Shown here piece after piece: positions 17,339 through 41,063 of a stretch of 64,000 nt of DNA. The position numbers and the translations under genes are program-made. The notes under the pieces were generated by a model. It saw only the letters and a list, made by a program, of their open reading frames with translations, was not told the origin of the DNA and did not search any database. Source of the stretch: Mya arenaria (lineage: Eukaryota; Mollusca; Bivalvia; Myida; Myidae); assembly GCF_026914265.1 (NCBI RefSeq), contig NC_069131.1, positions 2,887,501-2,951,500 of the forward strand, read 5' to 3'. Every line of letters starts with the position of its first letter. Positions within the stretch are counted from its first letter, which is position 1.

Positions 17339-17339
<1 letters not shown>

Positions 17340-17640
17340 CTACAGATATTAAGGTGACCATATATATATTAATCTAGGCATTATGGGGACCGTTGGATTA
17401 AGGCGACAAAAATTGGTCTCCTTAATAATTTCAGTCCAGATTTGATGTATCAAATGTCAATAAAAATGTCCATTGACAGTAAGTTGATAAGCTTGAATGT
17501 TTATTTACGAGATCATTTCATTGTTTTAAATATTATTCTCTTTTAATATTAAAAAAAATATTCTTAAACTTTTGTGTTAGTATATTTGTGTATCCATAAA
17601 AATAGCTATTAAGGCGACCAGGGAAAAAATCATAATTTTG
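17339..17640 (-). repeat. AAGGTGACC/GGGGACC repeat flanking (TA)n
   Basis: ATTAAGGTGACC, GGCATTATGGGGACC and ATTAAGGCGACC are reverse complements of GGTCACCTTAAT, GGTCCCCTTAATGCC and similar words at 47810-48135. Both copies end at a (TA)n array. Confidence 0.55.
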
Positions 17641-18390
17641 GTCAAAAATAGCTATATACTAAGCATTTTTTATTTGTTTTACTTTATTTAAAGCTTATTG
17701 TATATTATCCCGAAGTTTCATTCCATAAAAAACAGAAATGAGGAAATTCGATATTTCGTGTACCATCAGCATCCAAATTTTCAAGTATACAGAAATTTAA
17801 CTTTCCGGAATATAACGGAAATTTTCGGGTATCTCCGTGGTACCATCTCCGTGCAATTATGCAGTATGGCGTTCATCTCTTACAGAAAGAGAATGGTAAC
17901 TTGGTAAGTGTTTAAAATACATATTCAACGTTTTTTCGTTTATTTTTATGACTTTTGTACAGTTGTATAAATCGTCCACCCTTTGGATGAAAAGCAAATG
18001 ATTTATCCGGATTTTGTTCATCCGAAACTAAATCACTAGTATCAACATCCGGTGTAATTTTTGCTTGTATTTTGGAGAAACTAGATTGATTTCTAGCAAA
18101 CTTGGTTTACCACTACTGTACATCGTCGCTTATTATTATTTGGTATGTTCCAATCTAAAAAATGATTTGCTCCCATAACATCTCAGATTTTAATAAATAA
18201 AAGACGAAAGGATACAAATGCCTTACATTTTGTTTGTCAATGTCATGTCATTAGTCAGTCTCATCACCTTTGAATAGCAGAACAGAACGAACACTATCAC
18301 CAATTCGTATTGTGGCTTTTTGCATGTGTCTTAAATTCTCATATTTGATAATAAATGCAACAATAAAATATTTCCCTTATTCTGCCACAG
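17641..18390. other. Mostly featureless; weak exon-like frame
   Basis: A 69-codon frame at 17698-17907 ends next to a good donor word (TTGGTAAGTG), but no acceptor, partner exon or known motif supports it. Confidence 0.4.
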
Positions 18391-18572
18391 TTATGCACCA
18401 GTCAATTGTAACAATGGCGCCCAGGTCTTGTTTATACCGGGGATAGCAAGGGAAATGGGCCATGTTTTTACCTTCCAGGTGGACCGGCAGTGCTGAGTGA
18501 ATGCGGTGTTATTGTTTTTGCGCTGATAACAGGGAATGGGCCTAACCTAGGATGTCCCCAGGGGCATTTGAC
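18391..18572 (+). mobile_element. Left half of a split 0.3 kb inverted-repeat element
   Basis: It starts with ATGCACCAGTCAATTGTAAC and carries ATACCGGGGATAG, TTTTTACCTTCCAGGTGG and GTGAATGCGGTG, all in the same order as in the complete copy at 53279-53603. It stops inside the counterpart of GGGGCATTTGG. The missing right half is found at 32615-32748. Confidence 0.8.
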
Positions 18573-18582
18573 GGGGATCTGG

Positions 18583-18678
18583 TCATTTCGTAACCTTACC
18601 ATTTCGTAACTGCTGATCTTGGTTATTTCGTAACCATTCTGTTAGTCAATTCGTAACCGTCAAGTAATCAATTGACCT
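18583..18678 (+). repeat. Left inverted end of the 14 kb insertion
   Basis: Four copies of [T/C]NATTTCGTAAC[C/T] or TCAATTCGTAACC spaced 16, 24 and 23 bases apart, followed by CAATTGACCTTTCGACAG. The last word recurs inverted at about 21628-21645. Confidence 0.75.
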
Positions 18679-18759
18679 TTCGACAGCGGCTTCTAAGCCA
18701 CGCCCCCTGATATCAAGGGAGCGAACTCTGTCTATGTCCGTCAAACAAACGAGGAAGTA

Positions 18760-20085
18760 ATGGCGTCTCGCGTCGTTTCGCTTTCCGATATTCCTGACAA
18801 ATTATCATAAATGTGACATTACAATGCGAAAAAAATAGAAGTCAAAGGAATTTGTAACTGGCTGCTACATCGGAAGGCTCGATATATCTTTAGAAAATGA
18901 CGATATCTAACATTTACGAGGTGAAATCTATCCAAGTCAGAGAAAATCGGATAGCCGCCAGGTTGTCAACATTGACATCGATACAAAGGAAAAGCGTGTG
19001 TGTGACGCATACTGTAAATGCAAACAAGGGTAAGTTTAACTTTTAATAACACCGGTCTTTCTTACAGTATTGTTGAAACAAAGATTAAATCATCGCACAA
19101 TATGAGTAAATCATAAATGGCCCGAATGGGGAACCCGGAAGTGACATTAAATAACAGTTACTTGCCAGCTATACAGTATAACCTTGTATTCTATAGTATG
19201 AGCAGAAATGGTTTATTGGGGTTATGCATAAAAAGTTTCAGTTCTAAGCGATTGAACACTCCCCCTTATGAATAATAAGGTAATAGTTGACAAGTGACAA
19301 TCGTGGGTGATACCAATCTGTAACTTTTGCATTGCTCAAACATTCATATGCTTTGATTTTTGTTCTTACAGAAATTGTGGAACATGTTCACACACTCTGG
19401 CTGAAAAGTGCCCCCGGTGTGGGGCTCGAACTCACAACCACCAGAACACTAGCCCGGCGCTCTAACCAACTAAGCTGACTGGGCAGCTGGTTCTAACCCA
19501 CACACACTACCCTCCCCCCATTTACCGGTTAAGGCTGGTGGAGGGTCTCCTGCTATTTACCGTTGACACCATTAAAGTATTCTGATTGATGGAGATAAGG
19601 AAGTCCCCTTATTATTGTCTTCAACAAGCCTACCGCCACAGGGGACCTAGCATAAGACCGGAAACCGCCCCCCCCCCACACACACACATGATATTTGCCA
19701 GTCCAGGCAATGTCAACCGCAAGAGAAAACCAGTGATGACAAGTTTTACAAATAAACGGTAGGACCTATTTTAAAGCTTTTTATAACATTTAGTTTTTAC
19801 TTTGCTGTACAAAAGTAATGGACTATTTGTCCAGAGAAAAACAACAACCACAAAACATTAGCTAGTATCTTGTCAATATTTCATTATGATATACATGTAG
19901 AAAGCAAACATCAAAGGCAGTAGCATTTACAGCTAGTATTAAAATATTTAACAATACATGTAACTGATTTATTTTAATATTGGCATCTTTTATTTATTTC
20001 AGGAAAGTGTGGTCTTTTGAAGAGAGTTCTTGAAGTTGTTCAGCATGTTGTTTTGATGGATTCTTGGAAGGATGTACCTCTATGA
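18760..20085 (+). pseudogene. Decayed gene with a SWIM zinc finger (transposon- or host-derived)
   Basis: An ATG at 18760 opens MASRVVSLSDIPDKLS and then a stop. A second frame from about 18838 gives GCYIGRLDISLEN, one stop, then VVNIDIDTKEKRVCDAYCKC, ending at a GTAAGT donor at 19030. Splicing to the acceptor at 19371 (TTCTTACAG) continues the frame as QGNCGTCSHTLA. The SWIM signature CxC...CxH is therefore seen as CKC and CSH, split by an intron. A SINE then interrupts the locus. A possible last exon (20003-20085, acceptor TTTCAG) reads KCGLLKRVLEVVQHVVLMDS and ends at TGA. SWIM fingers bind DNA or protein and occur in Mutator-like transposases and in many invertebrate repeat-encoded proteins. 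The start sits just inside the left end of the 14 kb insertion, convergent with the THAP gene. Confidence 0.6.
19402..19690 (-). mobile_element. tRNA-derived SINE inserted at the SWIM gene
   Basis: The minus strand has an A-box-like TTAGTTGGTTAGAGCGC and a B-box-like TTGTGAGTTCGAGCCCC, followed by ACACCGGGGGCAC. The body has a C-rich run at about 19666 and a (CA)n. It is related to the copy at 62262-62470. It begins about a dozen bases after the second half of the SWIM motif, so it disrupts that exon or the adjoining intron. Confidence 0.55.
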
Positions 20086-20279
20086 TGTTAGCTTCAGTAT
20101 AACACCAGTTGTTGCATATTTAATATCAGATTTATTAAATACATTGTTGTTTTGCAAACATTACTTAAACTTTGATATTTCTTTGATGTTTATGTATGAT
20201 ATTGTAGGTGAATATCTCTTTATTGCAATGGCAAATATATTTTAAAATATATAGCATTAGCAGAAGTTATTTTTCACTG

Positions 20280-20468
20280 TTAAAGCTGCACTTTCACAGA
20301 TTGATCACTTTGACAACTTACACAGGATTCGATTGCATTTATCATGTTTTGGCTCGGAGAAGTTTGCTTTGTGATTTATATATTAGGTCTTAATTTAAAG
20401 AATGCCAAAATAAGCCGATTCTGAGACAAAAAGTGTCAAACTAGAATTCTGTGAGAGTGCAACTTTAA
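20280..20468 (+). mobile_element. Small inverted-repeat element (AAAGCTGCACT family), copy 1
   Basis: TTAAAGCTGCACTTTCACAG at the left and CTGTGAGAGTGCAACTTTAA at the right form near-perfect terminal inverted repeats around a 150-base interior. No coding capacity. It lies between the 3' ends of the SWIM and THAP genes. Confidence 0.8.
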
Positions 20469-20602
20469 GAATACTGTTAATCGAGTGTGCATGTGATCCG
20501 GACTCTGAACATTGGATGAACTATCATTAAATATTGTAGATTTACGTAAATGGCCCAAAATATAAGAATAACAATGAAAATACATGCATGTTTGACTTGT
20601 TC

Positions 20603-20608
20603 TTTATT
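20603..20608 (-). terminator. Polyadenylation signal of the THAP gene
   Basis: AATAAA on the minus strand about 165 bases after the THAP stop codon, in the context TATGAATAAAGAAC. It is the most plausible 3' end signal for that transcript. Confidence 0.5.
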
Positions 20609-20771
20609 CATAATAAGTCTAAGTCTTTACAACACATGTTTGGCAGAATCAAGTTCTAATGAACATAATAATTGATTTAAATGTACAGTGAAATAAATTG
20701 TTTTATACAGAAAATAAAACCTTAACGATTCAGACCGATCTGTTCTCGTTTTGTTTTGGTGGCTCAAATAT

Positions 20772-21492
20772 TTATCTGAGTTTTGGAGGAGGCCTAGCTG
20801 GTGTGAGCTGGTCAAATACAGTAGCTGCTTGAGGGTCAGTGTTTTCTTGATTGGATTTCCCGTCGACAAAGTGCTGATATAAAAATAAGAAATCTATGAA
20901 ATGTGTCGGAATGACAGCTACAAAAGCCATTGTTTACATAGGAACCATACGAGTATATGAGATTCGGAAGCATGCGATGGTTCGGACAAAAATCTAGTTG
21001 TACGATATTTCCTGATTTACTTTGAAAGCAAAGCAGTTTATAAAAACTACATAACGGTATCAACAAAAATACCTCTATCTTGAATGAAATCAATCGTGTC
21101 CATGTTGAACCTGATATTAAATGGCCATTAATGCCGATTTGACAACACAAGCCAAAGCATAAATGTACGATGTTTATAGTTTAAAAATAGTAACACTTAT
21201 TTAGGTCATGCACGGACAATTTCAGTATTAAATAAATTTTGAGCGGATTGAAATAAGTAGTTTTGTTCAAAAAATACTTTTGTACAGACGTATAGATGTT
21301 TCGCCTTTGAACGATCTTTCAAAATTTCCAAGTTCAGCTGTTGATGAGGTCTTCCACAGAGTCTGATACAGCACTTGCATTTTTCTAAATAACTCACTGG
21401 TTTCGAATACAGAACGAATTGTAAGCCATCTTTAGTCGGCCTGGCTACCTTGTATCCGAATTACAAGTGCCATGACAACACCTTTTTACCAT
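20772..21492 (-). pseudogene. Two-exon THAP zinc-finger gene, decayed
   Basis: Minus-strand exon 1 (21492-21278) starts MVKRCCHGTCNSDTR and, after one in-frame stop and a one-base frame change, continues DGLQFVLYSKPVSYLEKC, IRLCGRPHQQLN and KHLYVCTK. The GTATTT donor is in phase 0. Exon 2 (20873-20772, acceptor TATCAG) gives HFVDG, then DPQAATVFDQLTPARPPPK and TAA. Together these show the THAP C2CH zinc ligands (CxxxC, then C..H in YVCTKHF), the DPxA region and the trailing proline motif. The usual tryptophan before IRLCGRP is cysteine. The THAP domain would be nearly the whole product, about 105 residues. THAP domains bind DNA and are the DNA-binding part of P-element transposases. An AATAAA lies downstream at 20608-20603. 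It is convergent with the SWIM gene. Confidence 0.75.
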
Positions 21493-22104
21493 AATACTTA
21501 AAAAGGCGAGGAATTGCCAGCGCATGTATATGACGGACTCTGGTCAGTTTGACGGACAAAATGGCGGATAGCAACACGGCTTACCAGCCCTACATTCTGA
21601 TTGGCTGATAGGACCTGTCAATCAAATCCTGTCGTAAGGTCAATTGCTCATATAATAACCACCATTTAACAAGGTGATAAATAGTACACTTAGCACCTCG
21701 TTAAGTGTATTGTTCGAACCTGGATGTATATTGCACAGCAACCAAGACACCAATTGGGAGACATTACTCGAATTCTCACTAGTAACAAGCCAATAATTTA
21801 TGTTACTCAATAGTTATTAGATATATATATATCATGCTAAAGTAGAAATGATTTGTTATACTACCAAAATATGTTAATTATTTTCTTACATTTTGCTTAC
21901 TTATAAACAATAATTAAAGACTGATCGCGATGTATTTTTGAGTAAAATTACGTTTACATAAATGATCATTCTTGACCTATTTCATTGACTATATTTGTTT
22001 GAATTGTTTAAAACGAACAAAATTTTGTTCTGTTTTTTTCTCAATTGATTCATATTCTGCATACTTTATATCCGAAACCGACAAAAAACAACCTTAAATT
22101 ATTT

Positions 22105-22190
22105 GTTAGGCCAAATAAAAAAATAGGTCTGTTTCAGGTTACCCGACCGACCCTATTTTTCCCGCCGACCCTAACCTATTTTTCCCTGAA
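22105..22190 (+). repeat. Repeat word shared in inverted orientation with 31937-32030
   Basis: GGCCAAATAAAAAAATAGGT and TGTTTCAGGTTACC here match, reverse complemented, AGGTAACACTGC-type and AAATAGGTGTGTTTCAGGTA sequence near 32025. It looks like the end of an A-tailed dispersed repeat present in two orientations inside the 14 kb insertion. Confidence 0.5.
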
Positions 22191-22287
22191 AAAAATGTGA
22201 TTTGGGTACGAAAAGCATTTGTTACGAAATGTATGTACGTAAAGTTGACAATATTAGAGTTGGATTTTTCGAATGTATTTACCGTAC

Positions 22288-22318
22288 TTCACCTTAGAGT
22301 TCGGACACCTTAAAATAA
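22288..22318 (+). repeat. Inverted partner of 25688-25708
   Basis: TTCACCTTAGAGTTCGGACA here and TGTCCGAACTCTTAAGGTGA at 25689 are reverse complements with one base of difference in length, 3.4 kb apart. They could be the ends of an element or two copies of a short one (25622-25708 has an internal GTGTCCGAAAATT as well). Confidence 0.5.
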
Positions 22319-23321
22319 TTAATTTTTCGCTCTACGAATTCATAGAAAATAACCATTTTTACATTTTATTTACATGTATGGTAAACCTGCCTTTTTTCTT
22401 CATGTCTGCATTTTACCACTTATTAATTTATCCGTAGTTATCAATGGTTATTACGCCTATAAGTCACTGTAGCTCCTTCATCAAGATGGTTAAAATCCCA
22501 TTCAACACCATTTTATACATGCATTGAAATGAATAAACACCTTTTATCGGCTTCAGATCAAACAGTCCCATTGTGTGACGTCACATAACTCAGTTATACC
22601 CACGAGGATCTCATGGAGAGCATGGATATTGTTATGCAGGATTAATGTGTCTGGCGTTTTTTTATTGTAACTTGAGTATTGCATTTATAACTTTAATTCA
22701 TCACATTTAATAGTTACCTGTATCATTGAATGTGTTGACTTTATTGTTTTCATGCCAAGAAATCTTATCCAATTTTCAATTAAGAAGGAAACCCCTGTAT
22801 GCCAGCATATACCTGGATTTTAGCAGCATATGCATTATGTTCCATTCAGTGGTTTTGTGCTAAGGGTTAAAGGACTGACTTGGTTCTCCATGAAATTTTT
22901 ATCAGTTATCTGCTGTTACAGCTAATTCATTTCATTTAATGGCCATTACGACCATCATGAAATTCAGGGGAGCAATAATTTTGGTCATTTTTCGGAAAAA
23001 TCTTTCTATAGTGCATGGTTCTTAGATTTAACGCTTCATCTCATTTTGTTGATTACGACACTTGTCAAAAATAAAAATAAAAATTCAATAATAGTTTATT
23101 ATTAAGTATTGACATGATTTTCTTAACTATAAAAAGTATAATTATTAATTAACTAAGCTAAGCATTACATCTTTGATATTGTTTATGAACAATCTCCTTG
23201 ATAACAATATTTAACTATCTAAACCACACTCTTGTTATTATGTTTAATTATGTTTAAAGATTGAAAACATCAAGTACAAATGTACTAACTATATTTCTTA
23301 GTTCCCCGACAGCTAAATATT

Positions 23322-23447
23322 TTCCTCACGCCGGCCAAATCCTAATAGCCTCTTATAGAACAATACCGTAATCAAGTCGTTTAATTTAACAACTTGAGTA
23401 CGGTATTGTTCTATAAGAGGCTCTTAGGATTTGGCCGGCGTGAGGAA
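23322..23447. mobile_element. 126-base foldback element
   Basis: 56-base arms beginning TTCCTCACGCCGGCCAAATC pair with the right arm with two mismatches around a 14-base loop (CGTTTAATTTAACA). No clear target duplication. It lies in the nested part of the 14 kb insertion. Confidence 0.85.
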
Positions 23448-23577
23448 GTTTTTTGAAACAAATAGAATCACAAACCCCAGTCAAACTTATCAACTTCCGG
23501 CTCAAAATTGTATGACTCATGTATATTTAATAAAATGATACCGGGGAGTTGTTTATCTGTGGATGCCGAAAATCTGC

Positions 23578-23841
23578 TTAAAGGGGCTATACTCCGTATG
23601 ATAAAATAGCGGAAAAAAAGAGAAAATTTTCGAAAACTGACATAAACTTGGCATCGATGTGTACACTGCATTGAAACTTACTAACTGAAGAACCCGGTCT
23701 CCGAAACAGTTTTTATTTACATTTTGGTACTTTTATTTTTACAATTATGATAAAGCGTAACACAGTCCATTAGATAATTGTCCTGAGATTCGTTACAGAA
23801 GAAAACTTTTTTGGTGCGAATCTGGTGTACAGTCCCTTTAA
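23578..23841. mobile_element. 264-base MITE with TTAAAGGGNCT ends
   Basis: The left end TTAAAGGGGCTATACTCCG and the right end GGTGTACAGTCCCTTTAA are imperfect inverted repeats. The interior is AT-rich, and the minus-strand frame across it (to 23468) is not a gene. Confidence 0.65.
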
Positions 23842-24072
23842 GGGTTCATTGTACTTTGCGCTCATTATAAATAGATAAATGAAGGGTCTTCGCATTGATA
23901 CAAAAAGCTTAGTTCCTTCATTCACAGCAACATATAATTGATTAACGCAAGATTAGCAGCATCAGTAGAAGTTATATTATAGTTAGTAGAAGGAATAGTA
24001 GTAGCTGTTGTTGTAGAAGTGGCAACAACAACAACAACAACAATTCAGCAGGAGCGGCAGTAGTTTAGGGGT

Positions 24073-24190
24073 ATCATCATCATCATTATCATCATCATTA
24101 TCATCATCATCATCATCATCATCGGTGGTGGTGGTGGTGGTGGTGGTGGTTGTGGTGGTGCTGACGGTGGTGTTGTGGCGGTGGTGTTGA
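24073..24190 (+). repeat. (ATC)n followed by (GGT)n microsatellite
   Basis: About 50 bases of ATC repeats then about 40 bases of GGT repeats, flanked by (ACA)n at about 24020. The proline/methionine frame on the minus strand is an artefact. Confidence 0.9.
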
Positions 24191-25753
24191 CATTGGCAAT
24201 AGCAGAAGCAGTAGTGGCAGTATCAACAACAATAGCTGCAGCATTACCACCTGTATTACTAAGACTTAAGAGCACACATATTAAATGACCAACATAGTCG
24301 GTTCTGTTCGGTGGGGTTAAATACCTATTTACAGTAACGTTCTGAGTCATGTTATTATTTGGAGTGGGGGTGGGTCAATATTTTACAGAAAAGGAGTCAC
24401 TCAAGGACAGCGACCATTGTTGTGAGTTTATGTCGGTCAAAACATGTTCTTTCACAGGTCACGGTATGAAGACAATGCCAGATGAACACAAAACTAAGCA
24501 ATTTTTTAGATTGAAACATTGCAAAAACAAATCCCAATCAGTTATACGAAAATGCATTTTAACCGCCTCATGTGTTCATGATAATATGAACAAAATTGAA
24601 GTAAATTTAACATTCGGAGATTCAGTTTTGCCAATGTGATATATTTTTTCAAGTTTCGTTTGTATTTCCCATTTTCCATGGTGTATACGTATACTTACGA
24701 ACTCAATATTTTTTACAGTGAAATAAAAACAACAAAGCTTTAAAAATGAACAATAAGAGTGTGTGTTTTTGTTAAAAAATGTGAACCCAATAAATCTGAC
24801 ATTTTAAAATCAATACCCATACGCTTAGTAAAGCATACCCTTAAATATAATTCGACCTACGAGACGGCCAGATTCATATATAATGTAATATAGGTTACAT
24901 TTTCATTCCAAATAAAACGGTTGGTTAAGCATACCATTTTCATTAACATCTGTCATACACATGTATGTCTAAAACGATAATGTTACTCATTAAAAACATC
25001 ATATTTTTGTTTAAGAATAAGTAAATAATAAGTTTTACTAAATTAAGTACTCTGTAATTTTAATTAATTGTAGTTAACACTTGATACTTCTTCACGTCTT
25101 TCTGGGCAAAATTAAATACATTCTTCCAAATCTTGACCCAAACTACAGCAACTCCCTAGATATGAAAACATGATTAAACACATGGTCAGATTCTCGGTCA
25201 ATTAGGGGTTAATGTGTAGCTGAAATTGGCTCTTGTGTAGAAATGAAAAGTGGAAAAATTGGCTGGTATTTCTTGGCATGATTGATGTTTCAATGAGTAT
25301 TACTGTACGATTATTGCTTCATAAAGTCTATATTAAAAGTGTGATACAAGTTTCAAAGTTAATTGGCGGATCGTTTTACAAACATGTCATGTCTGTGTTT
25401 TAATCTCTGCATTGCCCTTGTTGTTTCTTTAATCCTCCATTGAATATATCACACATCCTTTTCACCAGGCAATAAATCGTTTAGGATGGGTAGTAACCAA
25501 CTAACTTATCACAGTGATGTATACGGTTAGGTAATCTAGCCAGGCATTGTAACGATAAAGATCAATAATTTTTGTCTGTGAGACTTAGTTACTGTAAAAG
25601 TTCAGTCGATGTCCTTTGGGTGTCCGAAAATTAGGTACCTAAAATAAATTATTTTTGAAAATAATAATGGATGTCGGAATTTATAGAATGTCCGAACTCT
25701 TAAGGTGAATTACGTTTGTGCTTGTGTGGCAGGTATGTTTCAATTCTTGAACT

Positions 25754-26034
25754 TTATTGGTATACTTAAGATCAGAGGCAGAGCAGCAACAAGGGTGAGC
25801 ACGTAGTGGATATTCTATTACCCATCATTAGATTCAAGAAAAGCATAGCCCTTTCAATATTTATTTCATTTTTATTATCTTTATCTTATGTTTGGGAAAT
25901 AATGGGCAAGGCTCGGACGAAATGTCGGTAAAATATCAACGGTTCTGTCACGGTATATCTATGATCAGATCCGACCAATCTATATAAATACCACAAATTG
26001 TCCATTAAATGTTATTTGAGAGTTGCCAATCGCC
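25754..26034 (+). repeat. 281-base direct repeat R1, copy 1
   Basis: TTATTGGTATACTTAAGATC to GAGAGTTGCCAATCGCC recurs at 26663-26943 with about four substitutions. No open frame. Confidence 0.9.
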
Positions 26035-26239
26035 GAGCAACGAATATGCTGAGAAAGCGGTATACTACTCCCTCTGAATACTTAGCTGCTAGGTATGATT
26101 GCTATTTAATCGTCAGAGCCTTACCAGTGAAAAAAAACACAACACAAACCAACATCGAAATAATGGAATGTTAAAAAAAACAAAACAAATTAACACAATA
26201 GGTTTGCAGCACATCTAGTATTGAAATCATCAGCTGGAC

Positions 26240-26330
26240 TTCGGCGTGAGGTGGAAAGCCTAATGGTTAGCGAGATGTGCAGAACGATTGGATCGTAACC
26301 TCGAGTCAATCTCCGGATTTACTGAAAATA
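26240..26330 (+). mobile_element. Possible tRNA-like SINE remnant
   Basis: AAAGCCTAATGGTTAGCGAG is A-box-like, and GGATCGTAACCTCGAGTC stands where a B box would be. It is short and decayed, lying inside the nested part of the 14 kb insertion. Confidence 0.3.
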
Positions 26331-26429
26331 TATATAGAAAGCAAGCAGAACACATATATCGAAACCAGTATCATTCATTAAGTATATATGCCTGTATGTA
26401 GACGAAGTTTGGGGTTTTGGGAGGGTGGG

Positions 26430-26662
26430 AAAATAAAACAAAAAATAATAGAGCTGCAAAAGGCTGACCTTTCTCATACGATGGTCGGAGCAAAAAGGCC
26501 TGTATAACCATGTGCTTTGTAGAGGGCGCGCACTGCGGCCAATCAGATCAGTATAATATGTTACGTCATGCAATTGCTCGCAATATGGTTATAGAGCACC
26601 ATTAATTAAATGCATTACAAAGATACCAATAACGAAAGTTATCCTTAAAGGAATAACTTGAA
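26430..26662 (+). repeat. 233-base repeat R2, copy 1
   Basis: Identical by eye to 31237-31469. It contains GAGGGCGCGCACTGCGGCC, GC-rich against its surroundings, and ends with a small hairpin (AGTTATCCTT/AAGGAATAACT). Confidence 0.9.
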
Positions 26663-26943
26663 TTATTGGTATACTTAAGATCAGAGGCAGAGCAGCAACA
26701 AGGATGAGCACGTAGTGGATATTCTATTAATCATCATTAGATTCAAGAAAAGCATAGCCCTTTCAATATTTATTTCATTTATATTATCTTTATCTTATGT
26801 TTGGGAAATAATGGGCAAGGCTCGGACGAAATGTCGGTAAAATATCAACGGTTCTGTCACGGTATATCTATGATCAGATCCGACCAATCTATATAAATAC
26901 CACAAATTGTCCATTAAATGTTATTTGAGAGTTGCCAATCGCC
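26663..26943 (+). repeat. 281-base direct repeat R1, copy 2
   Basis: Second copy of 25754-26034. It starts exactly where the 233-base repeat R2 (26430-26662) ends. Confidence 0.9.
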
Positions 26944-27244
26944 AATGAGAGGCTGAGGTAGCGGAAGCCGATCTGCCCCCAAAAAAACACGCAGAAAATA
27001 ATAAACCTAAATGAGATGGTCAAATATTTTGGATTTTTTTATTTATTTTTTTTTATTTTTTTTATTTATTTTTTTTAATTTTTTTTTGGCTTGGCAACAC
27101 GAAATGTTACAAAAAAAGAACTTGCAGTTATCAAATGCGCCAATCAATGTGTTATGCACATAATAAAATGACTTTATGACGGCTTTTCCAAGACGAGCAT
27201 AGCAATTGGCAAACATATATGAATATATGATAGCATATATGAAT

Positions 27245-28530
27245 CTAATTTACGTTATGAAGCATTTGTAAGATTTAAGGCTGAATTTCGCATTTCTATT
27301 ATGTGCCAATCGTTATCATACATTGCAATTCGTGAGCAAGGGCCGGACCAATGTAGCCTCAGGAAAGTTTTACTAAATGTTTCACCTGCCAATAATGTGG
27401 TTGGTGTTTTCATGGTAAAGCGATATATACGCAGTAATATTATTTATAACATATACAAATGTAGCGTACAATGGGTGTTGTTGCAATACATAGCATGGCA
27501 AACTTAGATAGCGTTCTGAATTTCGCATTTCTGTTTTACACCCATCTTCATCACATATTGCAAAGAGCTAAGGCCGGGCCAAAGTAGCCTTAGAATTTTT
27601 TTAGTAAATGTGTCACCTGCCAATAATTTGGTTGGCGTTTTCATGGCGACGCGATAGATTTGCAGCAATATGATTTATTACATATACAAATATAGCGAAT
27701 AGTTGTTGTTGTTGCATAGCATAGCATAGCAAACATAGCATAGCGTACTGAATTTCGCATTTCTGTTTTACACCCATCTTCATCATATATTGCAAAGAGC
27801 TAAAGCCGGGCCAAAGTAGCTTTAGAATTTATTTAGTAAATGTGTCACCTGCCAATAATTTGGTTGGCGTTTTCATGGCGACGCGATAGATTTGCAGCAA
27901 TATGATTTATTACATATACAAATATAGCGAATAGTGGTTGTTGTTGCATAGCATAGCACAGCAAACATAGCATAGCGTACTGAATTTCGCATTTCTGTTT
28001 TACACCCATCTTCATCATATATTGCAACGAGCTAAAGCCGGGCCAATGTAGCTTTAGAATTTATTTAGTAAATGTGTCACCTGCCAATAATTTGGTTGGC
28101 GTTTTCATGGCGACGCGATAGATTTGCAGCAATATGATTTATTACATATACAAATATAGCGAATAGTGGTTGTTGATGCATAGCATAGCATGACAAACCT
28201 AGCATAGCATATATAATGACAATTCAAGTCTTGAAGCTTTCCGGCATGCAAACATAGCATTGCATACTGAATTTAGCATTTCTGCTTTATACCCAACTTC
28301 ATCATATATTGCAAAGAGCTAAGGCACTGCTAATGTAGCGTCAGAAAAGTTATAAGTTTTAATTTGGTTGGCGTTTTCATGGCGACGCGATAGATTTGCA
28401 GCAATATGATTTATTACTTATACAAATATAGCGTACATTGGTTGTTGACATAGCATAGCACGACAAACCTTGCATGGCGTATATAGTGACAATACAAGTC
28501 TTGAAGCGTTTCGGCCTTAATAATTACCAT
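27245..28530 (+). repeat. About 232-bp tandem satellite, five units
   Basis: Unit starts (AATTTCGCATTTCT or a variant) lie at 27284, 27519, 27751, 27983 and 28270, so periods are 235, 232, 232 and 287. Each unit has GTCACCTGCCAATAAT, TTGGTTGGCGTTTTCATGG and a nested (TAGCA)n. Units 3 and 4 are nearly identical and the outer ones diverge. Minus-strand frames of 60 codons repeat with the unit and are not genes. Confidence 0.92.
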
Positions 28531-28859
28531 TGTATATATGTAGTTAAAACAACTAGTATTTTATTGATTTCAAATCTGTTTTTTGCATGATTATTATTGT
28601 GTTTGTTTCTTGCACAAAAATGTTTCAATACAAGGCACTTTAAAGTAAAATAATTCAATCATGGCTATAGTATAAATATATGAAGCTGGCGTCACAGTAA
28701 GTAATTTGCAACACGCAATATAATGTACTACGTAGTTGATGATATATGTCTATAAGTTGGTACATGGTAAAATGCCCAGGAAGAAATTCCGATTGATTTT
28801 AAAAATAGGTTTGTTTCTTACTAAATGGTTACAAATATACTTGAGTACTGTCCGTTCTA

Positions 28860-29094
28860 AAACAGCATATTAATGATCTTGATCTGTAGTTGGATGCCGT
28901 TGATTTGTCTTGATTTCGGAGTATTTCTTAGTATAAAGTGGCTTATTTCAATCTCGTTCAGCTGCTTTTTTACATCTAGATTACTGAGTTTATCGGTTAT
29001 ATCTGGTTCTGTTATTTTGGAATTGCTAACAGTTTCAGCAGACCATAATTCGAACGGAGGTAACCCCACTTCATTTAATTTTGTCAATTGTTAA
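28860..29094 (-). pseudogene. Possible LINE reverse-transcriptase fragment
   Basis: The minus-strand frame reads EVGLPPFELWSAETVSNSKI and then EPDITDKLSNLDVKKQ, NEIEISHFILRNTPKS. The second part resembles the start of a non-LTR RT domain (a form such as I.D..IxxKLxxLxxxKxPGPDGI...LK), with the GPDG core replaced. It is short, and the opposite strand is also open. Low confidence. Confidence 0.3.
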
Positions 29095-31236
29095 ATTATG
29101 CCAAATATTCATTAGGGGCTTATCTTTATCGGTAAATAATAAATAATTTGAGATATTTTGTCGTAATTGTCAAAGTGATTTTATTATATCTAGTTAAGAC
29201 ATTTCATTCAAAGTACCGACTATTACTAATCGTGAGGAAATTTCAAGGGCTCTTTATAGGCTAGTTTCAAATATGTCCTGAAATGTTATCCCACCAGAGA
29301 AGGTGTTTTTCAGTTTAGTCTAAAACTTCATTTGAAAGCTGGGTTTCAGTAAAACATGATACATGTATATTAATCTCCTTTTTGTTCATTAATGCATTAA
29401 TGTATTTTAGTTTATTTCGTATACTGCGAATATTTTGAACCACTTCCTTCTTCAGATATCGGCCAAGGATCCTGTACAACTCGTTAAAACGATAAATAAT
29501 ATAGTAACGAACATAAACTTATGGATACATAATATCGACAAAGTACTGTCTACCCAATAAGTTCTTCAACTAAAATACGTTTCTTTGAAGTCACTCGAGA
29601 TTTGTATAAAAGAAATAATTAGAAAAAACTGTTGAAACAAGACAATTTGGTCAACAATACGCACAGCTTTTTGACAACGATTTAAGATAGATAAATTAAT
29701 AAAGGAATGAATAGGTAGAAAACAAGTAATAAACTAGTCATAAATAAACTAAATATCAGATATGTAGTGTTGCATTATCATAGATGTATAACGATTTAAA
29801 GACACTCGTAATTTGATGAAGACATAATTAGTCCATCTACATAATTATTTAGATACCATGACAAGTATTTTAGGAGCAGAACATTTATCATATCGACAAT
29901 TTTCAAACAGCTTACATTTGTGATTAATATGAATAGTACAACAGTGCTATTCTCTAAAAAAAAAAAAGACAAATCATGTCAATACCAACTTTTAAAGTTT
30001 TAGGAACATTAACATGTGTGGGTTTGTCTAAACCTTTGAAAAATGATGAATCCTTTTTAATGAACCACCTGTTAACACCCTCAGTTTACCCCAACTGTTC
30101 TGATTTTGAAATTTAAAAAGATCGTGCAAATCGCTTTTTTGACAAAAACAATGAGAAAGTGTATCAGATGTCAAGCTGGATTAAACTGGAATGTGCATAT
30201 CGATTATAACTTTAAGTTCAATACAGACACATATATACATGAATAATAATAAATAACTGTACTTTGCGTATGTACGTTGATATTGAAACGGTGCCGGGTT
30301 GTTTACATAATTGTTTACAACAAGAATGATACAAGATATTCAATATTATTTATAGTGGGTATGTTATTACTTAACCAAAGAAGAGTTTAAAGTGTTGTGC
30401 TATATTGCAAATAAACTCTTTCTTGGATAACATTAAATGACGGATATATATTAACAAACTGGACTATATATAAAAAGGTAATTTTTCATTATTATTGTAA
30501 AATACGAGTTAACACTATATGCTTTAGTACGCAGATCACTGACATAACAATATGGTTTCATCGTATCATAATTACATATTTTATTCTTGTATTAACGAGT
30601 GAATATGCTGGACTAATATAACACAGTCATTGGTGTTTCTACATAAGAGTCACTCGACACTAGCTGTTAAACTGAGTTACAAATCAAGCACGTAGTTGCA
30701 ATGATATCGTGTGCACTGTCTAAAATTAAACTAATTGCATTTTTGGGCAAGGTTCTCGCTAAATTTGCTGATGACTGATTCATAATCGATTTTTGAGAAG
30801 CCCCAAGCCGAATGTCTCTGCCATTTCAAGTATATCTTGCGTTATATCTGGATGGGTAACTAAAAAGATAGCCGCGTAATTAAAGAAAGCGTCAGTCGAT
30901 GACCCTTGAGGGGATATTTTAATGATTGACGGACATTATTTTGTTTTCATTAAACGCTACGTAGCATAATTGGCACATTAAAACAGAAACAAAGATAAAC
31001 ATTTAATACACTTAAAACAATGGAGGAATAAATAAGTTCATTTTGATTAAGTCTAGAATTTGAAGCAAAAGAGCTACTACCAGTACGCGAAAAAAATACA
31101 CTTTCTGTACTAAAATTCAATTGCATGATGACTCGTAAAAAAAGTATTTATTATCGCTGACTATAAGATAAAAGTGCCACTATAAAACTAAATTATGTAT
31201 TTGCCAGATTGTTAAAGATGAAATTCAAAACAAATA

Positions 31237-31469
31237 AAAATAAAACAAAAAATAATAGAGCTGCAAAAGGCTGACCTTTCTCATACGATGGTCGGAGCAA
31301 AAAGGCCTGTATAACCATGTGCTTTGTAGAGGGCGCGCACTGCGGCCAATCAGATCAGTATAATATGTTACGTCATGCAATTGCTCGCAATATGGTTATA
31401 GAGCACCATTAATTAAATGCATTACAAAGATACCAATAACGAAAGTTATCCTTAAAGGAATAACTTGAA
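31237..31469 (+). repeat. 233-base repeat R2, copy 2
   Basis: Identical by eye to 26430-26662 across its whole length, so the duplication is recent or maintained by conversion. Confidence 0.9.
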
Positions 31470-31936
31470 ATATTTTCTTGTCAGATACAAATGTGTCAGA
31501 TACTGACTTTCGGTTTGATATGTCAGACTTAAGTGTGCAATTTTGGCTATAAAACCTGCATGTTACTTGTTCTTCAAACCTGAACCCCCAGGTCCTCTTG
31601 ACAGCATTGAGGTTTCCTTGGCTAATGGCTTATATGGTAAATTTGCTGTCCCACTCTTCATGTAATTATGTTTCAGGGAGGTTAGTATTCTACAGAGGGT
31701 GATTGAAAGCAAACGGGTGCATAAAGAAAAGTAAAACCGTTCCTGGAAAGTCTCAAATAATAGCAGAGTGGTGTACCATAAATCCAACCACCATTGTCAA
31801 AAGTATTTAACCAGACAAATAAAGAATGTTTCCTTTGAAGCATGTAACATGTTTAAAAACTACTGATAAACCTGAAAATTGATGACTTTTATTTTTGTTA
31901 CTTTCTGAGTCAACAGTTACTGAAATCAATATATCA

Positions 31937-32030
31937 AAAAAAAAAAAAAAAAAAAAAATATTCCGACCTACCTACCTTATTTTTTTTAGCAGTGTTACCT
32001 GAAACACACCTATTTTTTATTTGGCCTTAT
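31937..32030 (-). repeat. Second copy of the GGCCAAATAAAAAATAGGT repeat, with poly(A)
   Basis: On the minus strand it reads GGCCAAATAAAAAATAGGTG and then GTTTCAGGTAACACTGC; on the plus strand it follows a 24-base A run beginning at about 31936. Confidence 0.5.
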
Positions 32031-32516
32031 GGTATTAATTTCCAATAACAAGATACAAAATTAAACATATCGGCACATTTTTAATACAATAAGCATATAA
32101 AAAGCGCATAATCTCATTCGGCAAACTCACTACATTTTACAATACTTCTATGCAATTTAACAAAAAAGAAATTCTAAAGTAATATGGTCTATATATTTAA
32201 AAAATATTGGCTTAAGGTCACAATTCCTCTCAATGGTAGAACATCTATGAATTAAAAAATTATTACATTTAATATTCAGCCTGCTTATAATATTTCCTTC
32301 GCAACATAAAAAAAATAGCTAGTGTGAATGTTTCTATTTGTCATAGTTTCAGAGTTTATTGGCAAATCGCACTACACTATTAGGAATAAAGAAGGAATAC
32401 AACTACTAGATTTAACTTTGTTTATGTTGTTATTTTTATGTTTTATACTTACAGTAAACTTATTTTGTAAATTCAAATGGTATTAATTTAATTCCTCATA
32501 ATTATAGGAGTCAACG

Positions 32517-32606
32517 GTTAAGATATGACCATTCGATTTCTTAACGGTTACGAATTGACTAACACAATGGTTACGAAATGACCAACAATGAGCGGTTACG
32601 AAATGA
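32517..32606 (-). repeat. Right inverted end of the 14 kb insertion
   Basis: GGTTACGAAATGA at 32594 and 32569 and GGTTACGAATTGA at 32546 are reverse complements of the left-end motifs, at the same spacing of about 23-25 bases. A more degenerate GGTTAAGATATGACC follows at about 32517. Confidence 0.75.
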
Positions 32607-32614
32607 TCATAATT

Positions 32615-32748
32615 CATTTGACAGGGCTTTTACCAGCTGTTTGTCTGTGCAGAGCGGGAATTTTACCTGGGATTGGCTGGACCGAAAGTCAAAGTCCCCG
32701 CTATTAGCAGGACCTTGGGGGCCCATGCTGCAATTTACTGTTGCATTA
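32615..32748 (+). mobile_element. Right half of the split 0.3 kb inverted-repeat element
   Basis: It resumes at CATTTGACAGGGC, continues with TTTTACCAGC, GGCTGGACCGAAAGTCAAAG and CCCCGCTATT, and ends with the terminal word AATTTACTGTTGCATTA, in the same order as the right half of the copy at 53279-53603. The two halves sum to about the full length of that copy. Confidence 0.8.
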
Positions 32749-35699
32749 TTTGGATTTTTTCTTAACTTTACGACACGCCCCCCTACAGTATTTTATAGTC
32801 AAGTTTAGTAATATTTTTTTACAGAAATTGGATAACTTAACAAGTAAAGTAAACTGTACTGAGCTTTTAAAACAAACCTACATACTTATAAATCAAAATT
32901 GATATTTTAGGGTCTACACTGAATAAACCCAAAATGTTAGTTTTGATTTGCTAAATTCGAACAGTATTTAGTCAATCCACACAAAATTTACAGGATCATC
33001 AGATAACAAATTTTCTAAAAATTCTCTGTTTGCCAAATAGGGAAGACAGGTTTAAGTGGGATTAAAAGGTTGCTATCTGTGACCAAAAAAAATACTGTTC
33101 AAAATTGTGAGTATTCATTTATCTTTTGTTCAGTAAAGAGCATGCAATGGCATAGTGGTTGGATTAGATAATCTGACAGCGGTGCTGGACGTCAGGAGTT
33201 CAAATATTGTTGTGAGTTCAATGTACCAAAAGAATACCTTTGGAATACACTACCGGGTATTATCTATAAAAATGGCAGAGCAAATTGCCCATATTGTAGT
33301 AATGTCTTAGATCCAGCTTGGATAACTTGGACACAGTAAGCGGTTCACACCCAAGGAAATTCTCAGATAAAACAGCGCCTATAAACTTGAACATTACATT
33401 TTTCATTGAGACAATTAAAGAAAAAACATTATTGCTGATCTTCTGAAAACAAATCCTCTAACATTCAAATATTTAATTTGTTGGATGAACTAAGGGTTAT
33501 ATTGATAAGAGATTGCTTCAGTTGGATTTAAACTAATCACCAACAAAAATATATGCATTTAAATCACACAATGTAAACAACTGCGCCACATATCTTATCT
33601 GTATGTTTTGGGTTTTTAAAATTTAGCAGTTAAATATAGATTAGCATACTGGTAGGTCTGGTTGATCTGTTGCTTTAGTTGCTAAGTAAACATAATGTCA
33701 GTGATTTCATCACTATTTCTATTAAAATATCAGTTTTCTTCTTCAGGGCTTCTCACATTTGCACCATTTTTTTACCATTTGAATCATAAAAAGATAACAA
33801 ACACAAGAACTTAACACTTTGTGAATATTTAAGGAATGTAAGGGGTCAGATTTCAGATTGCTCATTATTGCTGGAACACTAAATACTTTATTTGATTGTG
33901 TACACTGCACTTTCTTGTTAAGCATTCATCCAAATCATTTGGGTAAATTTTGGCAGAAAAACTGCTTTTGGATTTATACTGGTCATCAAAACCGGCACTG
34001 ACAAAACATAAGACGTGTTTAATTAATGTGCGGGAAAGAGGTTTAAAGGTGTCGACCCACAATGAAAGGCTTGCGGGTTGCAGTACCCCTTTAAGTAGTT
34101 CTTGAAAAAAATGATTCTCTGAGGTAGCATTTGATTATGTGTACATTGTATTCTTGTATGTATTTTTCAAGTTAACACATGATTTATATAAGTTTTGTAT
34201 AATTTTAGTTTTATTTAAGTTTTAAAATTTTGATTTTTTTTAAGATTTGCCTGCCCCTGTCTGAACACTTAAATTCTTGGTCTTTGGACTATTGTCTGCA
34301 ACTTCAAAACACACTTTTTGGAACAGGACACATTTTCCTGATATTTTATCCAGTTTGACTGCAATATAAGTTGTATTTTTCAATAATTTAAGTAAAAAAT
34401 GACATTTATATTTCCATAATTACCTGGTAGTTATTTGTTAATTTGTTTTAATTCATGGATAGGTTTATTGCGAGTGTCATGGAAAGCTGGAACTTTTCAG
34501 TACACAACATGCAAACTGAGAATGAACTGTGTGTGCCGGCTTTGTGAACAAAAATGCAAGGCGGCTACTGAATTTATTGTGTTAAATCTGACTTGGGAGT
34601 AAGCGTGCATCTTTAACAATTAAAGAAATGTTGTAAAGAAATATTCCGTTTATGATTATGTCATCACATATTGAATATAAATGAATTTGCATTAGCATCA
34701 AATACTACAACTACAAACTTTTAGAGAAAATGTCATTTTTGTACTATGACCTTTAAATGTCATTGACTTGACCTTGAGGTATAGGAATGCGACATATTCA
34801 TTTAAGAAACATTAAAACACATGAGCAATTTACATTGCGGCCATTTCCAATAATTTTTAGCATTATGACCCGACTATATATGATATACTTAGATTAATAT
34901 GAATTCATTGTACAACGATTGTGAAGAAATTAATTTACATTATTATGCCTGTTACTTTCGAATTCGTCTAGATATTTTCAACAATATATAATGTTATTCA
35001 TGCAAGAACTAGTTGAACAAGATATTATTTAGATTTTAAGGTCAAATGGTTATATTTGCCAGAAAAAGTCGGGCAACCTACATGATAACAAAACATTATT
35101 TACATTTGTAAAGGTTTCGTACCATTTTATTCGACAAAAGAGTTCAATAGCATGCCCTTACTTTTAAAATGTTGATGTAGCGGTACTGTGACGGTGTTCG
35201 AAAAAAAAACCACCGTACTCGTGCTAGGGAGAAGGGATTTTTTTCAATGGACTACACGTTAAATTATTTGGCCAGTAATATCATTCAGTTCGACAAAGAA
35301 TAATAATGAATATTGGATTGAAAATGGTCCAATGTTGAAAACACTTGTGTTGTATTCAAATATTTTAAATCACAAGTGTATTGTTTCTTGAAATTAATTA
35401 TACGACTTTACCTAGAACATTGAGGAACACTACACAATTTCCGATATTCGTGAAAAAACACTACAAGTGCGAAGTGGTCGCATGTGTTGTGAAGTACTAA
35501 TCTAAAGTGTTCTAATTCATACATGATAGAAACATATTCACATCTCATATTTTATAAATATACTATCTAATCAATCATAAAACAATATTCAAGATATCCT
35601 TGGGACCCCCCCCCCCCCCCTGGACACGCAATACAATTCGTGTTTCGCTGATCTGTTGGCTGGGATCAGATCATCCATTTAGGGATTTAGATATGTTAT
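32749..35699. other. No supported gene
   Basis: Contains the weak SINE at 33.15 kb, a C run at 35607-35620 and a cysteine-rich open stretch at 34465-34602 (CKLRMNCVCRLCEQKCK) that I cannot assign. Confidence 0.45.
33147..33350 (+). mobile_element. Possible old tRNA-derived SINE
   Basis: A-box-like TGGCATAGTGGTTGGAT, then CAGGAGTTCAAAT as a weak B box 45 bases later, with no open frame. The 3' limit is uncertain. Confidence 0.35.
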
Positions 35700-36110
35700 C
35701 CCAGCCACCAGGCTGAATGTTTAACCGTCACCAGACACTCTGCCATGAATGTGAGAGAGTTTAAAGCTATTTCTTATTTTCCTGTGTAACTATATTGATG
35801 TTTGATAAAATTTACGCCGTCGTGTTACTGAGTAACAATTTGAAATTGGGCCAAAATCATCAAGCTAGAGCTTTGCATAATCTTTTTCAAACTTCTGGGA
35901 GATTTCTGCCCTTGAAAGTATTTGCTCGCAGCCCGCCTAAAAGTTACACTTCGTTCAGTATTTAAAGCTTTCAGATACACTTTTTTGTTAATTTGAGATC
36001 TTAATGACGCTACATTGTACTTCTAAGTAAATAGATGCTCAAAGTAACTAGATGCTCTGGGTGTTCACTGGGTGACAAAGGCTACCCAGTATTGGTTGTT
36101 TCTTTTTTCT
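35700..36110. repeat. Second copy of the 15.5 kb old repeat
   Basis: CTCTGCCATGAATGTGAGAG, GTCGTGTTACTGAGTAAC and TTCACTGGGTGACAAAGGCT follow the order of the 15476-15900 copy. The neighbouring 36072-36260 region is open on both strands, which is uninformative. Confidence 0.5.
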
Positions 36111-36327
36111 GAAAAGATGTTTCTAGTGAATTGCCAAGTTGCAGTGGTTTTGACGCCACAGAACCAGCACAGCTCCATGACAGATATATATGTTTTCGTC
36201 ATTGATGTCAGTACTGCTGTATTGGTGGCCTCACAATTTCTGTGTGGAAATGTCATCTGATACACTCATAACGGCGTATTTCTAGCATAGCTTTCATAAG
36301 TGCATGGCCATTCTCTGTCATTTTCAG

Positions 36328-38979
36328 ATACACTGTGTTGTGTGTGGATAAGAAATGCAGAGTGGTACCACCAATCACCTGAGCCACCATTCCCCTAACA
36401 GACAAAAGGCTCATGGGGACAGTTCCTGCAGTTTACAGCAAATTGTAGCCCTACAAACTTCAGGTAAGTGATAAATCTGGGCTTCAAGATATCTCTGTAC
36501 TCACTTTAAGTTTATACTTCATTTGAACAAAACTTACAATTTCAGCATCAAAATCCAGGTTTAGATCCCAGACCGAACCTTGTCTCCTTTATTAAACTTC
36601 ATTTCAGATAATCTATAAGCCACATACATGTTCACTACTTATGGCGTATAAGAACTTTCGCAAATTGATTATAAATGCGTTTTCCCAGATATACACCCTC
36701 CTCTTGCAGATACTGCCAAGCTTGGGTGCACTGGGCCGGTTATCCAGCCGTGTGGAATCAACATCTCCAGCTGAACTTGGGCCGGGAATTATATAAGAAT
36801 CCTTAGCAGCATGGTGAGCTTTTGTGTATTTATTTCCAGGCTCGTATACCCGTCCAGACTTCTGCGTTTAAGCTTTCCTTTCGTCATTTTTTTAAATAAG
36901 GTATCTCAAGTCTTTCAATGAAATCACAACTTTGGAGGCTGGATTTAAATTAAGGAACCATTATGTGTAGAAAGCCTTTTGGGTGATTTAAAATCAAATT
37001 AGTAAACAGGATTCTCATGGTTCATGGTTTATAATTGGCCTTGTGGACCTTTCATTCTTTACTTTGGTAAGAGCCGCTTAGGTATGTAAGAAGGGGGGAG
37101 GGGGGGGGGGTACAGATGTGATAGTAAACAGTGTTTAATAAGGTATATTTGTTTTTATTTTATCACCATTTTGAAGGTAATGATTGTGTTATCAGGGATA
37201 AGTAACAAGTTTAACATAAACACTGTAACATGTTCTTTATTTCAAATAAAGCTATAAATTATCTCTGGAGAATTTAGTCTGATCTCCATTTCTCAGAAAA
37301 TGTAGCTGTCTAAGTGCCTATTCCATCAATGAGTATCACTGTCTTTAAATTGCTGTTGTGGTACAGTTTAAATGGCAAAAGTTTTATGGCCCTGCTTGTT
37401 TGCAACTCCTCATTCATTTTTGTACAGCGAGAAAAGTAAGGGAATTCTAGAGGTTTACTAGAATTATGGATTGTTTTTACTAGAATTATGAATTGTTTTT
37501 CTTGAGTTACACAGTACATAAGGAGGAATTAGTGTGTACACAACTCCTCATTTTATTCCTGTTTATTATTTATATATGTAACATAGATGTGTACAAGACC
37601 TACGGTACTGTAGAAACATGACATAAAAGAGCTCACTTTGATTAATTTCCTCAAAAAAAGATATCTTTACTGTTAAAGTAAGAACTTTTACTGCATAGTA
37701 AGTAATGTCTTCTGCTCATCTTTATGACATCATTACATGGAATGATGTCAACTTCCCAAGACACATTTCCACATGGCGCAGCTCATTTATATATATTGCT
37801 GATGGATTGTTTAGAATGGGACAGTTTTAATTGGACATAATGTTTTAATCGCCATTTTACAGAGTGCCAGCCAGTCATTGCTGTTCTTTGCATTGCTGAG
37901 GAGGACAGTCCTGCCAACATAATAGTTTGTTCAATAACAGGTAAAAAAACTGGTCTCACTTTACATTTTCAACCACTGTTCGATCGTAACAATTATCAAA
38001 GAACCGGCTAGTCTCGATCATGAAGCCGCTCTAATTAGAGTCAATGAACGATATAGATCTGGATACAAGCGTCTAGATGATCGAGACTAAATTGGCAACA
38101 TGAGAACATTTATTTCCTTTCCTGATTCTTGAAAATTACATGAACAAATGACAATTCTACTACCATTTAAAGCTTGATTAATTTTCGGACAAATGTGTTT
38201 GTTTTAATTTGCCTTCCGCTTAAAGTGAACGTATATATACTGGGCAAGAAGTGCTGAATTTCATCGTGAATCACAGTGATTATCCAAAGTTTGAATTTGG
38301 TTCGGACATGTTTGACGGGAATTCAAAGACATTTTTTGTCAGCCGTCTTATATCACAGGTTTCCATGCATTTTGCATACATTAGTTCATTCCAAGATAAA
38401 AATTATAACCTTTTTTCAAAACGTTCAATCTGTGAGAGTGCAGCTTTAATAGACCTGTAAAGACTTGTCGATGTGAAACTTAACTCTCAATCAAACTATG
38501 GTAAAAGATCAAATGCGGGGCTCCGTGTACGACATAGACTGCTAATTTTTATTTAATATGATGAAGAGCTAGTTAAGTTATCTTTTTTAAAAGTCTTCAT
38601 TTGAAGAAAAAAAATGTTTCAATACCCTGTATGAATTTTCTTCACCGGATATTGATTCATAAAAATCATTGCTCCAGGGTGCGGAGCTACTTTTTGTTAT
38701 ATGTCTATATGGAAAAATATTCTCCTCAGAAGTCAACTTTGTTCCCCAATGTGCAAGGCACAATCGGTGAAAATAATTTCAGTAAAAGTCACTGATTATT
38801 ATTATTGTGATTATTATTAATAAACTTTTACTATTTCAGGAGACAAACAGAAACACAGAGGTGCTATACATTCCGATGGAAAATACAACAAAAGAAGAAT
38901 TTTAAGAAAGGTAATAACTGAGCAACTAAGAACATGCATGTTGCACTGGTCAGAGTGTAAGACCCATCTCGCTTCATAA
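36328..38979 (+). pseudogene. Decayed four-exon gene of unknown function, possible BED-like finger
   Basis: Four candidate exons have compatible phases: 36328-36463 (acceptor TTTTCAG, ends phase 1, GTAAGT), 36710-36813 (acceptor CTTGCAG, ends phase 0, GTGAGC), 37865-37940 (acceptor TTACAGAG, ends phase 1, GTAAAA) and 38840-38979 (acceptor TTTCAG, ends at TAA). The peptides are CVVCG, a stop, EMQSGTTNHLSHH in exon 1 (spacing of cysteines and histidines like a BED finger), TAKLGCTGPVIQPCG in exon 2 with one stop, CQPVIAVLCIAEEDSPANII in exon 3, and KHRGAIHSDGKYNKRRILRK in exon 4. I do not recognise the family. Splice signals and phases are better than chance, but two internal stops argue for decay. 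A GTAATA within exon 4 could be an alternative donor. Confidence 0.4.
38336..38450 (+). mobile_element. AAAGCTGCACT-family element, right-end fragment (copy 2)
   Basis: Carries GTCAGCCGTCTTATATCACA and ends CAATCTGTGAGAGTGCAGC followed by TTTAA. It is the conserved right half of this family, and the left end is missing or unrecognisable. Confidence 0.65.
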
Positions 38980-39170
38980 GAATTGATAATCATCAATGTA
39001 TTAAATCAAGAAATTGAAACGTAAGTGTCTTGTCTTTTGCAGTGTTTTTGAAATAGAATATAATTTTAAAAAAAAACTAAATTATTTTTTAATATGATTG
39101 TGAATGTGTGATGTTTTCTTCCGATCATTCTCTCTCAAAAACCAGATACAAAAAACATATTTGTAGATTT

Positions 39171-40530: not shown

Positions 40531-41063
40531 CTTTATTGCTTGAAGCCACAGCATAAGAGGGGGAAGGTGCAGGCTCATCAAAAAGTCTCAAAAGTTGAAA
40601 CTAGGAAAAGAAGTTTGTCAAGAGTGTGAATATTTGCTTTGAAAACCATCGTTACGATGATTTGGTTTCCTTTGAAACTTGATACATACTATGTGTATGT
40701 TGAATGAATTGAGATGCTTAAATAAAGAACCGCTATTCAAATATCAGGAAACTGCATTTTTCATACTAAAGGGTAAATGATGTCGCCATTTCCTGTATGT
40801 ATTTAAATGAGATATGTTTCCACAATTAATATTTTTAGGGAATTTTTCTCATCCTAATGAATGAGATTAAATTGTACAGCGTTATATGAGCTTAATATGT
40901 GTTTTCTGTTTCTTTAAAATTGGTGAAAAATTGTCAGAAGATAATTAGACCAGTATCCATTACTGCAATCATACAATCAAATATACAGGGACAAACCCAC
41001 TGGGCATATAATATAATTAAACCCTGTTTAGGGGCACGAGGCAAACAGAGTTACTTTAAAACG

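Follow-up and report, generated by a model that had tools for sequence, protein, structure and literature searches.

Mutator-like elements combine a SWIM-type zinc-binding motif with a MULE transposase and a target duplication of about 9 bp, and P elements combine a THAP zinc-binding motif with a P-type transposase and an 8-bp target duplication. According to the available parts of the published description, ISL2EU elements encode a transposase with DDE, HTH and THAP domains in one open reading frame (ORF) and a YqaJ protein in the other (PMC4482050). Their target is A|AT|T (PMC4482050, PMC9179366; available parts). Their inverted ends comprise 6-259 bp and usually start with GG, and the role of the second ORF is called unknown in the same sections (PMC4482050).

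The window analysed here is a stretch of 64,000 nucleotides from Mya arenaria (contig NC_069131.1). We assign, with a probability of about 93%, the module of two facing gene starts within it to a non-autonomous ISL2EU-type DNA transposon (PHIS superfamily), one copy of which is nested in a larger element. An ATG at 18760 (plus strand) and an ATG at 21492 (minus strand) face each other, and both the SWIM and the THAP start lie inside a 2,970-bp element (18673-21642) with 14-bp inverted ends TGACCTTnCGACAG and the target duplication AT. The element and its surroundings contain the following features; L045 is a longer relative described below.

18671..18672, no strand: left AT of the target site duplication (site A|AT|T)
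18673..21642, no strand: very probably a non-autonomous ISL2EU-type element, 2,970 bp (three empty sites; ends and target site duplication)
18673..18686, plus strand: left terminal inverted repeat TGACCTTTCGACAG
18736..18746, plus strand: subterminal word GTCCGTCAAAC, left; also at both L045 ends
18760..19029, plus strand: first-exon relic, SWIM-YqaJ gene, with GTAAGT after it; lesions compared to L045
19372..19409, plus strand: what remains of SWIM exon 2 (NCGTCSHTLA), preceded by an AG acceptor; end approximate
19410..19616, minus strand: SINE-like insertion, tRNA-like at 19411-19484, missing in copy L027
21272..21492, minus strand: THAP exon relic of the transposase gene
21547..21557, minus strand: subterminal word GTCCGTCAAAC, right; also at both L045 ends
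21629..21642, minus strand: right terminal inverted repeat, minus strand reads TGACCTTACGACAG
21643..21644, no strand: target site duplication AT, right copy

The boundaries of the element are fixed by three empty sites in the same genome (L033-L035), which span the joined positions 18672/21645 with a single AT. Compared to the joined flanks, 557 of 563, 557 of 559 and 570 of 574 aligned bases are identical, with 4, 4 and 0 gap bases, respectively. The A|AT|T target and the AT duplication of ISL2EU were found at these three empty sites, in six copies elsewhere and in L045. In the six copies A precedes AT in five cases and T follows in all six, the AT itself having been demanded by the search pattern. 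The initial annotation had described the same pair of words in opposite orientation outside each start. Both pairs exist, CAATTGACCTTTCGACAG corresponding to 18669-18686 and its inverted partner (A at N) to 21629-21646, but two of the positions given, 18737 and 21628, were each off by one. A search of 17.5-34 kb for inverted 18-mer pairs (≤1 mismatch, 0.5-6 kb apart) revealed ten pairs, nine of them AAC- or T-rich low complexity and the tenth the element-end pair; 40 shuffles gave a mean of 0.475 and a maximum of 5.

The facing SWIM and THAP starts with their inverted words are indeed present, but neither frame is intact: in the window, 16 codons of the SWIM frame and 15 of the THAP frame are open before a stop. 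Of the transposase ORF this 3-kb copy retains just the THAP exon relic, and YqaJ is absent. Pfam detected no THAP, SWIM or YqaJ domain in the six frames of 18.55-32.62 kb (stops as X), and short peptide pieces from the window relics gave none of the three either. A comparison of the THAP piece to viral contigs resulted in 30 pattern matches with no relative among them.

The genome searched (G000; 1.216 Gb, 18 contigs) harbours the longer relative L045 on C17, which comprises 5,624 bp (5.6 kb) and has both ends identical at 14 of 14 positions. One strand carries a SWIM-type frame and YqaJ (1.7e-13), and the facing strand carries THAP (7.3e-5, a score exactly at the Pfam cut-off), HTH_Tnp_4 (7.5e-14) and DDE_Tnp_4 (7.2e-31), the DDE frame being interrupted by a stop. 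L045 possesses both the DDE, HTH and THAP transposase ORF and the YqaJ second ORF of ISL2EU, neither of which the window copy has. As this gene content equals that published for ISL2EU in the available part of PMC4482050, the kind has a name, whereas the initial annotation knew of no named family with such a layout. Among the copies found, none has both genes open.

In three other loci an open YqaJ frame is convergent with an open DDE_Tnp_4/HTH_Tnp_4 frame. These were drawn from 150 scored YqaJ matches (311 candidates) and chosen for frame lengths that occur repeatedly; no THAP was observed in the three, the stretches compared ending near the transposase start. Seven other YqaJ loci (L023-L026, L036-L038) all lack the 14-bp ends, even with ≤2 mismatches allowed. 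At least 150 YqaJ matches in the genome exceed the cut-off, and many of them, on several chromosomes, have equal frame lengths (394, 487, 551 aa), which suggests a recent spread of ISL2EU. The label SWIM refers to a CxC...CxH motif; Pfam SWIM gave no match in the family of the 3-kb element and L045, and a weak one in L037 (0.0047, below the cut-off).

It is rather unlikely that these elements form an ISL2EU-like lineage meriting its own name by virtue of TG ends and an N-terminal SWIM-type motif. The 14-bp ends fall inside the 6-259 bp range of ISL2EU but start with TG rather than GG, and SWIM is unmentioned for ISL2EU in the available parts of PMC4482050 and PMC9179366, a literature search also yielding no co-mention. 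Nevertheless GG is only "usually" present (PMC4482050, available part), the SWIM-type motif also occurs in other YqaJ families of the same genome, and the four named domains as well as the A|AT|T site all agree with ISL2EU.

The ISL2EU-type element of the window belongs to a dispersed family. Its end word ATTGACCTTnCGACAG has 206 + 213 = 419 exact matches in the genome, compared to 0 + 2 = 2 for a reversed-pattern control. Among the first 100 matches listed, 82 make 41 inward-facing inverted pairs, and none of these 100 pair in other orientations within 10 kb. The 41 listed pairs span 506 to 3,636 bp, 35 of them lying within 2.7-3.1 kb, and one is a composite copy, that is, an element within the array repeat described below. 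A scored THAP relic is located inside 29 of the 41 pairs (12 without one), which is a lower bound because 150 of 592 THAP candidates were scored; all 29 relics point inward and keep a constant distance to an end. The proposal of a multi-copy DNA transposon with two genes, both of whose starts are linked to inverted ends spaced by about 3 kb, is borne out, and the opposite case named by the initial annotation, ends that never flank THAP or SWIM frames, does not apply. Nine of the 38 THAP matches on C1-C5 are outside the listed end pairs: two near one listed end, six beyond the range of the listed ends, and the ninth (C5:25514489) with no listed end. Copies recovered by their ends (L027-L032, the smallest with 506 bp) kept both gene starts in all six cases. 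This non-autonomous family numbers about 200 copies, and its exact empty sites and the longer two-gene relative that has identical ends make it useful material on the role of the second ORF.

The initial annotation had regarded the neighbouring iterated 13-base motif as an end of the transposon. The features of this array are:

18583..18658, plus strand: four TCATTTCGTAACC-like motif copies, left end of the host repeat, outside the element
21648..21660, plus strand: degenerate fifth host-motif copy, severed from the others by the element
32516..32606, minus strand: inverted right end of the host repeat

All four left TCATTTCGTAACC sites exist, but only the copy at 18583 is exact, while those at 18599, 18623 and 18646 have 2, 1 and 1 mismatches. 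As had been noted, the set recurs inverted at 32.5-32.6 kb (32606, 32581, 32558 and 32528, with 0, 0, 1 and 2 mismatches). The TCATTTCGTAACC array is part of the sequence into which the 3-kb element inserted.

According to the initial annotation a single two-gene transposon would own all of these ends, including the 13-base motif, and its THAP protein would bind them. The array does abut the left end of the element here and in 14 composite copies. However, of 734 candidate genome copies of 18573-18760, 40 were scored; 25 of these have the array without the element, and the other 15, window included, match over the full length. The array-only copies match to base 102 (18674), two bases into the element, as the empty site likewise goes on with TG, and the three of the 25 that were compared each read cleanly across the join with one AT. 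Furthermore, the six element copies elsewhere (L027-L032) have unrelated flanks without the array, and the array resumes beyond the far side of the element. With 18673-21642 and one AT removed, the sequence from 21645 continues the array, agreeing with the inverted right array at 13 of 16 positions, an ungapped level met at 7 of 127,970 positions; five of the other six are motif copies in the two arrays. The gapped score of the interrupted array separates only weakly (best 116 over the scanned boundaries, random best 114 in 2,970 trials). The empty sites refute a single transposon with the iterated motif as its end. That the two starts belong to facing host genes sharing promoter words, with no transposon involved, is the least credible explanation: the words do occupy a promoter-like position immediately before each start, but copy number (about 200 dispersed copies) and empty sites refute it, and fixed ends, 2-bp duplications and broken frames also speak against it. 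Within the ISL2EU-type element the inverted words may double as promoter elements. The facing SWIM and THAP starts are a trait of ISL2EU and their tie to the iterated motif is a single insertion event, which removes a false lead.

A 14-kb array-to-array unit (direct repeat CATTTGACrGGG, flank paralogue at 53.3 kb) was also considered as a moving unit. Its independent movement was not seen, since all three array-only copies checked have a common left flank; it is plausibly an older insertion. Two repeat halves (18433-18550 and 32615-32768) are split by the array-bearing insertion, and an uninterrupted relative of the split repeat lies at 53332-53622, with CATTTGACrGGG on either side.

In all 16 copies of a set comprising the window, 11 composites and L027-L030, the SWIM frame shows the same 11-nt deletion and the THAP frame the same break. 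One SWIM stop is present in 16 and another in 15 of these 16 copies; the 11-nt deletion is missing from L031 and L032, two smaller and more divergent copies with another stop. From the common lesions we infer that the 3-kb family spread after the death of its genes, moved by a transposase made elsewhere. The 3-kb form would accordingly be non-autonomous and mobilised in trans. Compared to the inner element of the window, the 14 composites show 0.34-0.71% substitutions, and five copies from other places show 1.8-2.5%. The array repeat received one copy, and the composite so formed spread in turn.

In our reading the fuller element consists of the 14-bp ends TGACCTTnCGACAG and two convergent genes, the first for a protein with the SWIM-type motif and a YqaJ exonuclease domain and the second for a protein with THAP, HTH and DDE domains. 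The 3-kb form retains the ends, the subterminal GTCCGTCAAAC and both gene starts, which survive because they are adjacent to the ends, while the YqaJ and DDE parts are gone. It would enter A|AT|T sites by means of the transposase of another copy, and one 3-kb copy hit the iterated-motif end of an older repeat within a larger mobile element, which then ferried it to new places. The THAP-bearing transposase presumably binds the ends, movement would be by cut-and-paste, and any role of YqaJ is likewise putative.

The larger element appears as one further feature:

17339..48140, no strand: large carrier element flanked on either side by (TA)n, with iterated CATTAAGGnGACC at its ends

In the window the carrier comprises 30.8 kb between (TA)n at 17287-17338 and 48141-48230 and includes both the array repeat and the 3-kb element; its CATTAAGGnGACC 13-mer copies are inverted between the two ends. 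Agreement between the window and the 14 composites begins at the left edge (about 17.3 kb) and reaches 19.07 kb or further in every one of them. In eleven it goes on past the inner right end, whereas in L010, L014 and L017 it ceases at 21.18-21.24 kb, within the stretch compared. A copy on C7 (three pieces) is colinear with the window to 48.2 kb, except for local insertions. The left end CTACAGATATTAAGGTGACC comes after (TA)n, with 9 distinct outside flanks in 15 copies, and TA runs, some of them short, precede 18 of 18 further left ends. All 33 left ends read thus adjoin a TA run, although not all sites are independent because a few outside flanks resemble each other. Exact genome matches number 163 for a left-end 20-mer and 52 for a right-end 22-mer (controls 0). 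Within the range of 100 listed left ends, 25 of 31 right ends pair with a correctly oriented left end at 16.0-39.9 kb, one left end being used twice (wrong-strand control 1).

In 33-48 kb of the carrier Pfam revealed nothing but mariner-type remnants, the stop-to-stop frames of a 16-kb copy all fall short of 95 aa, and no gene of the carrier's own was detected. A mariner-type transposase remnant (Transposase_1, 6.2e-7) is located at 44266-45000 (end approximate) inside the carrier. A foldback form of the carrier (L064, G000:C6:50586944-50593380) consists of two inverted arms of about 2.7 kb and lacks the ISL2EU element and window positions 22109-32026. It is quite conceivable, if not yet the favoured view, that the carrier represents an undescribed family of very large (at least 16 kb), apparently gene-less elements with CATTAAGGnGACC-iterated inverted ends, whose insertions are confined to (TA)n and which, mobilised in trans, brought the ISL2EU passenger to new chromosomes. 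No similar large elements were evident from a limited literature search, a thin basis for novelty. The carrier looks less familiar and more unusual than the nested ISL2EU pairing; if new, it would show that non-coding DNA of at least 16 kb is moved into microsatellites.

Additional insertions were observed in the window. A Harbinger-like insertion at 22109-32026, missing in L064, has inverted ends GGCCAAATAAAAAA(A)TAGG and is flanked by TTA on either side. Another at 25758-31464, missing in most composite copies reaching that far, consists of two head-to-tail units with the first 281 and last 238 bases in common and 232-bp tandem repeats within, and we take it to be reminiscent of Helitron-like elements. 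A duplicated block is present at 49.7-54.9 kb and 56.1-60.3 kb, its pieces mostly 84-91% identical.

The precedents named by the initial annotation, THAP in P elements and SWIM in Mutator-like elements, hold for the domain resemblance but not for transposase and target duplication. Unlike Mutator-like elements (MULE), the family has a 2-bp duplication and a DDE_Tnp_4 transposase domain, and the same two traits set it apart from P elements; it belongs to neither group. PIF/Harbinger, of the same superfamily, shares a DDE_Tnp_4-type transposase with HTH and two ORFs, whereas its second ORF is Myb/SANT and its duplication TWA, compared to YqaJ and AT here (PMC4482050, available part). From ISL2EU the window copy differs by its internal deletion to 3 kb and two dead genes, and the family differs by TG ends instead of the usual GG (PMC4482050, available part) and by a SWIM-type motif unmentioned in the available parts of PMC4482050 and PMC9179366. 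The DDE, HTH and THAP ORF, the YqaJ ORF, the AT duplication, the short inverted ends and the animal host are the same as in ISL2EU as described in those parts (PMC4482050, PMC9179366).
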